Below the pieces are notes generated by a model that saw only the letters and a list, made by a program, of their open reading frames with translations, searched no databases and was not told the DNA's origin. This document shows, in pieces, positions 33,776 to 36,805 of a stretch of 64,000 bases of DNA. Each line of letters begins with the position of its first letter. Positions within the stretch are counted from its first letter, which is position 1. This stretch comes from Chlorobaculum parvum NCIB 8327. Lineage in GTDB: Bacteria > Bacteroidota > Chlorobiia > Chlorobiales > Chlorobiaceae. The translations under genes were made by a program, and so were the position numbers. The stretch lies in contig NC_011027.1 in NCBI RefSeq assembly GCF_000020505.1, forward strand, positions 158,501 to 222,500, given 5' to 3'.

Positions 33776-34072
33776 ATGCCAAGATCACTGAAGAAGGGTC
33801 CTTTCATCGAATTCAAGCTGGAAAAGCGGATCCTTGATATGAACAGCAAAGGTGAAAGAAAGGTTGTGAAGACCTGGTCTAGAAGTTCGATGATCTCTCC
33901 TGATTTTGTCGGTCACACCGTAGCGGTTCATAACGGCAAAACTCATGTGCCAGTGTACGTTACCGAAAACATGGTCGGCCACAAGCTTGGCGAATTCGCT
34001 CCGACCCGGTTGTACCGTGGCCATGCGGGCGGCAAGGCAGAGAAGGGCGGTTCGGCACCCAGGAAAAAATAA
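33776..34072 (+). CDS. rpsS: 30S ribosomal protein S19
   Basis: A 98-residue S19 of the 30S head. [18 protein letters not shown] at the start, [46 protein letters not shown] in the core, and a basic tail. All conserved parts are present. Confidence 0.97.
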
Positions 34073-34103: not shown

Positions 34104-34464
34104 ATGCAAGCTAAAGCAATTTTACGGCATACCCCGACGTCGCCCCGCAAAATGCGGCTCGTAGCCGGCCTTGTTCGTGGCAAGCAGGTCGATCAGGCGA
34201 AAGCCATCCTGCTCAACTCCACCAAGAGTGCCTCCCGTAACGTGATGGTTACGCTCAAATCGGCTGTGGCCAACTACTCGCAGCTTAACCCCGATGAAAG
34301 GGTCAGCGACAATGAGCTGTTCGTTAAAGCGGTTTTCGTCGATGAAGGACCTTCGCTCAAAAGGACTTCTGCCCGCACCGATGGGTCGTGCATACAGGAT
34401 TCGCAAGCGTTCGAACCACCTGACGATCATCGTTGACAAGGTCAAGACACCGGTAACCAAATAA
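34104..34464 (+). CDS. rplV: 50S ribosomal protein L22, frameshifted near the 3' end
   Basis: The first 87 codons encode a normal L22 ([23 protein letters not shown] ... [10 protein letters not shown]). After AAA-AGG at 34359-34364 the frame becomes non-homologous and stops at 34436 (110 residues). In the +1 frame, from CTT at 34366, the expected ending follows in full: [23 protein letters not shown], then KVKTPVTK and a stop at 34462-34464. One extra base, probably A34365, explains this. The lost part is the beta-hairpin tip and C-terminus that line the exit tunnel. The causes could be a sequencing error, a real mutation, or +1 frameshifting. The coordinates given join both frames. Confidence 0.88.
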
Positions 34465-34478
34465 ACAAGGAGATAGCA

Positions 34479-35243
34479 TTGGGTCAGAAAGTAAATCCAA
34501 CCGGATTCAGACTGGGAATCATCAAGGACTGGACCTCCCGCTGGTATGACGACGGACCGGTTATCGCCGAAAAGATCAAGCAGGATCAGGTTATCCGTAA
34601 CTACATTTCGGCCAGACTCAAAAAAGAGAAGGCCGGTGTTTCCAAGGTTGTCATCGAGCGTACGACCAAGCATATCAAGATCAACATCTACGCTGCCCGT
34701 CCAGGCGCCGTGGTCGGTCGCAAGGGTGAGGAGATCAACAACCTTTCCCAGGAGCTGACCCGCATCACCGGCAGAGAGGTAAAGATCGACGTGATCGAGG
34801 TGATCAAGCCCGAAATTGAGGCGCAGCTCATCGGTGAGAATATCGCCTACCAGCTGGAAAATCGCGTCTCTTTCCGTCGCGCTATGAAACAGGCGATCCA
34901 GCAGGCCATGAGGGCAGGTGCCGAAGGTATCAGGATTCGCTGTGCAGGCCGTCTTGGCGGTGTTGAAATCGCCAGATCCGAGCAGTATAAAGAGGGCAAG
35001 ATTCCGCTTCATACCCTCCGCGCCAACGTTGACTACGCAAGTGTAACCGCTCACACCATCGCTGGTGCCATCGGTATCAAAGTTTGGGTGTATAAAGGTG
35101 AAGTGCTCGTCCAGAGGCTCGATGCCATCGAAGAGGAAGAGATGAAGAAAATGCAGGAGCGTCGTAACGATTCACGTGGCAGAGGCCGTGGCGATGGCCG
35201 CGGTGCGAAACGCCGCCGCCGTCCTGCTGCGAAAAAAGCCTGA
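34479..35243 (+). CDS. rpsC: 30S ribosomal protein S3
   Basis: A 254-residue S3 with an N-terminal KH domain ([22 protein letters not shown] near residue 70) and a C-terminal S3 domain ([22 protein letters not shown]). It starts with TTG at 34479 behind AAGGAGA. The C-terminal tail after residue 220 is rich in Arg and Gly ([16 protein letters not shown]) and longer than in E. coli S3 (233 residues). S3 is at the mRNA entry site. Confidence 0.96.
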
Positions 35244-36700: not shown

Positions 36701-36773
36701 GCGGGAGTAACTCAGCTGGTAGAGTCACAGCCTTCCAAGCTGTTGGTCGCGGGTTCGAGTCCCGTCTCCCGCT
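36701..36773 (+). tRNA. tRNA-Gly (anticodon TCC)
   Basis: A full cloverleaf can be drawn: acceptor GCGGGAG / CTCCCGC with discriminator T, a D arm with CTCAGCTGGTAGAG, anticodon stem ACAGC / GCTGT with loop CTTCCAA (anticodon TCC, reads GGA), and a T arm with GGGTTCGAGTCCC. CCA is not encoded. It lies within the ribosomal-protein block between rplN and rplX on the same strand, so it is probably cut out of the long mRNA. Confidence 0.95.
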
Positions 36774-36805
36774 CAGGTTCATGAATAATATCATACAGGT
36801 CAACC

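Follow-up and report, generated by a model that had tools for sequence, protein, structure and literature searches.

The +1 frameshift site of yeast Ty1 reads CUU AGG C, in which the AGG codon is rare, and the mitochondrial ND3 gene of birds and turtles has an extra base that recurs in many species. To our knowledge, dependence on recoding has not previously been shown for a ribosomal protein gene in any free-living bacterium. The programmed +1 frameshift of prfB, the RF2 gene, occurs family-wide, and its site combines a shifty CUU with a stop codon and with an SD-like element that lies one codon upstream (PMC13245932).

The genome of the green sulfur bacterium Chlorobaculum parvum NCIB 8327, a single contig of 2,289,249 bases, contains a canonical prfB site in which an SD-like GGGGG is followed by a spacer codon, CUU and a stop (elements as in PMC13245932). 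The site reads GGGGG TAT CTT TAA C (L117 1507–1521; G000:C1, prfB match start 2167795), with UAA in place of the usual UGA. Of the 13 genus members in which the shift site was inspected, 9 have UAA (compare L124, L129, L135, L142, L145, L147, L148 and L149), and TGA is found in L133, L136, L139 and L150 and in the sister genus. As UAA is also read by RF1, autoregulation of RF2 should be weaker.

We analysed a window of 64,000 nucleotides (the whole stretch from position 158501 to 222500 of the contig) in which the S10 operon is intact around rplV, the gene for ribosomal protein L22, with rplC, rplD, rplW, rplB, rpsS, rplV, rpsC, rplP and onward in that order. The neighbours of rplV, rpsS at 33776 and rpsC at 34479, are those expected of an L22 gene. 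Translation starts at ATG 34104 and encodes L22 in frame 0 through codon 87 (ending SLKR), and the C-terminus of the protein is then read in the +1 frame from 34366 up to the TAA at 34462–34464. An earlier note on this DNA had described a one-base frameshift after codon 87, with the conserved C-terminus continuing in the +1 frame to a stop at 34462; both statements hold, the former from translation of the open reading frames together with Pfam matches in two frames and the latter from translation. The features of the locus are as follows.

34104..34364, + strand: 5′ part of rplV, L22 codons 1–87 in frame 0 (Pfam PF00237 positions 1–88)
34365..34365, + strand: extra A relative to every relative with a complete L22, AAA AGG [A] CTT CTG (site alignment of 30 relatives; 79 relatives with unbroken L22)
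34366..34464, + strand: 3′ part of rplV in the +1 frame, stop TAA at 34462–34464 (translation; second Pfam piece, positions 74–103)
34365..34436, + strand: out-of-family tail of the 110-aa frame-0 open reading frame, 23 residues, stop at 34434–34436 (open reading frame list)

The 3′ part corresponds to the returning strand of the L22 β-hairpin plus the C-terminal strand. The gene matches the L22 profile (Pfam Ribosomal_L22, PF00237) over its length, as two pieces covering profile positions 1–88 and 74–103 that lie in two frames rather than in a single unbroken one, and the resemblance of both pieces to L22 is not due to chance. Against NCBIfam rplV_bact the 110-aa open reading frame scores 71.9 bits (cut-off 73.65), compared with 93.5 bits for an intact relative, and in a PDB search with the same 110-aa query the L22 chains align only to about residue 95. 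An intact second rplV elsewhere in the genome was considered and rejected, as a Pfam search of the genome found no other L22 copy. Further along the window, a tRNA-Gly(TCC) gene (36701–36774, + strand) sits between rplN and rplX in the spc-type ribosomal protein operon; its first 32 bases recur exactly in the corresponding stretches of G008, G040 and G034 (L077, L080 and L083).

The extra base had been assigned to AAAAGGA at 34359–34365. It does fall within this motif but does not add to the AAAA stretch: alignment of the window, which reads AAAAGGACTT, with the closest relative, which reads AAAAGGCTT, places it best as a single A at 34365, so that the run is not lengthened by the insertion. 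Some relatives write the Arg codon at this site as AGA, and because of this an extra G accompanied by a neighbouring substitution would be a formally possible alternative placement, less simple than an A at 34365.

Comparison with relatives indicates that the insertion is private to this record. L22 was matched in 82 of 98 genomes of the order sample. Among the 81 relatives with a match, L22 is whole in one open frame in 79 and partial in two (G056 and G092), both partial matches lying at contig ends, and alignment of 30 relatives at the site finds the extra base in the C. parvum NCIB 8327 record alone. The earlier note had called for inspection of the same site in other strains; in the relatives of the order compared here, the insertion occurs in none of the 79 with a complete L22. 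Seven genomes of the family sample have no L22 match at all; S3, encoded by the next gene, is also absent from four of these, and in the remaining three it lies near the end of a contig; for this reason the missing L22 genes look like assembly gaps rather than gene loss.

The closest relative found, DRSQ01000235 (the metagenome-assembled genome Chlorobaculum parvum HyVt-633), has an unbroken rplV that is 95.8% identical to the gene studied here, compared with 89.3% identity over the surrounding 23 kb. Its L22 is identical in protein sequence over codons 1–87. The two genes differ by 14 substitutions, 11 before the insertion and three after it, and each of these changes the third base of an L22 codon. 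Since the tail differs from the closest relative at third positions only, the L22 frame of the downstream half was maintained by selection up to the very recent past. Comparison of the tail with that of the next relative, G034, gives seven third-position changes and one first-position change. A tail of this kind is expected if the extra base is an error, a very recent mutation or a site of recoding, and thus the pattern rules out only an old, decaying tail.

We regard it as very probable, and as the best explanation of the data, that the A at 34365 entered the deposited sequence as a one-base error. The A would then be absent from the living organism, having arisen either as a base-calling or consensus error or as a mutation in a sequencing clone of the ribosomal-protein region, and the gene in the cell would be unbroken and encode an ordinary L22 of 119 aa. 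The single open frame of L22 in every relative with a complete match supports this explanation, as do the selection on the L22 frame in the tail and the standing of rplV as the lone clear sense-gene frameshift in 103 compared genes. It is also supported by the cost of the shift, which would deprive a protein required in the early steps of 50S assembly (PMC2672003) of its last strand and half its hairpin. Against it, indel errors arise most commonly by extension of a homopolymer, and the extra base here extends none. A literature search on recoding or errors in rplV found nothing relevant, and the suggestion of a clone mutation draws on background knowledge because a search of the literature on unclonable ribosomal genes gave no matches.

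The error rate of the record was gauged by scanning for frameshifts in about 260 kb of C. parvum NCIB 8327 against about 280 kb of a partly collinear congener (G008), with open reading frames chosen by match score. Among 103 well-matched genes (25,105 codons), rplV is the sole clear sense-gene frameshift in this genome; the compared region is about 11% of the genome, and the error rate is thus poorly fixed. Residual errors in finished genomes run at about 1 per 100 kb, and one private one-base indel per ~75 kb of coding sequence, a rough figure, is compatible with this. Other apparent frameshifts, for example at 32.5 kb, 35–37 kb and 43.2 kb of the window, were set aside as antisense or overlapping open reading frames, or as the leader upstream of rpmJ, and are not broken genes. 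In the reverse comparison, one ordinary gene of C. parvum NCIB 8327 is split in G008: a 389-aa open reading frame, whole near G000:C1:125857–127024, appears split by a frameshift around G008:C1 2001611–2001623 (L111), possibly a private frameshift in another complete record.

If the extra A is instead real, several outcomes can be envisaged. It might be a recent mutation in the sequenced culture, leaving a shortened 110-aa L22 or a little full-length protein made by leaky frameshifting; this we consider unlikely. The site is not a homopolymer and the record is otherwise clean, and the β-hairpin extension of E. coli L22 is dispensable for 50S assembly (PMC2672003). The same review, however, counts L22 as one of the proteins without which early 50S assembly cannot proceed, in line with the earlier view that the protein is needed for growth or nearly so, although the hairpin loop by itself can be spared. 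From the L22 fold, we infer that the shift takes away both the returning hairpin strand and the strand that completes the globular domain, so that the allele should be null or weak; an uncorrected truncation is therefore unlikely, and the genome has no further copy of L22. Alternatively, L22 could be made as two pieces, the C-terminal one started inside the gene at a +1-frame ATG (34342) or at an ATG in the tail. The ATG at 34342 indeed opens a 40-codon open reading frame that runs into the L22 tail, but the alignment shows this ATG in several relatives whose gene is unbroken, a start context specific to this record was not seen, the gene is split in no relative, and the break would fall within the β-hairpin. 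This is the least probable of the readings considered.

The earlier note had left the choice between a sequence error and +1 recoding at an AGG codon; an error fits the evidence, and we found nothing in favour of recoding. Efficient recoding to yield full-length L22 could proceed as in Ty1, with AGG waiting in the A site and the peptidyl tRNA-Lys in the P site slipping from its AAA codon onto the overlapping AAA, or by a tRNA-Arg that decodes AGGA as four bases. The AAAA would permit perfect re-pairing after a +1 slip, AGG has a single type of cognate tRNA, Arg(CCU), and the canonical prfB site in the genome is one at which its ribosomes presumably shift. Yet AAA-AGG is read in frame in the genes for EF-G (29568), L14 (36645) and L15 (40265) of the same window, and it is also read unshifted in the intact rplV of close relatives; none of the 79 relatives with a complete L22 needs a shift, so that the site is not a conserved one. 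Across 23 translation-related genes, AGG accounts for 61 of 312 Arg codons and is thus not a rare codon, AGG-A occurs in frame 24 times, and with no in-frame stop at the shift site either, a slow A-site event is not provided. Inspection of the tRNA sequences for Arg(CCT), Arg(TCT), Lys and Gly found 7-base anticodon loops and not the enlarged loop of a suppressor tRNA. A close SD-like element is also lacking at the site: the nearest AAGGA (34345–34349) lies 9 bases before the AAA codon, compared with 3 in prfB, and relatives without a shift conserve its EG codons as well. The RNA downstream folds no better than shuffled sequences (z 0.74), which argues against a stimulatory structure, and a P-site slip would replace a conserved Arg with Gly. 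We therefore hold efficient recoding to be highly improbable. One specific form of it, in which the extra A is real and an unprogrammed but very efficient +1 step at AAA-AGG-A gives the strain its full-length L22, is slightly more improbable still.

If the extra A is an error, as we favour, L22 in this record is truncated or liable to be called a pseudogene, and ribosomal-protein phylogenies that use the record would carry a corrupted L22 tail. If it is real, recoding would be sustaining an essential ribosomal gene in this strain, a rare situation.

Like prfB, rplV is a translation gene whose two open frames a +1 step would connect, but it has none of the prfB signal elements and its site is not conserved. 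With Ty1 and the mitochondrial ND3 of birds and turtles, rplV shares an AGN codon in the A site beside a single extra base; AGG, however, is rare in Ty1 and common in C. parvum NCIB 8327, and the ND3 extra base is shared among many species whereas the rplV insertion occurs in one record. The frameshift errors found in deposited bacterial genomes, which make essential genes look broken, are usually in homopolymers, unlike the rplV insertion, but in other respects they resemble it: they affect a single base in one record only, every relative has the gene whole, and the frame is conserved on both sides of the site.
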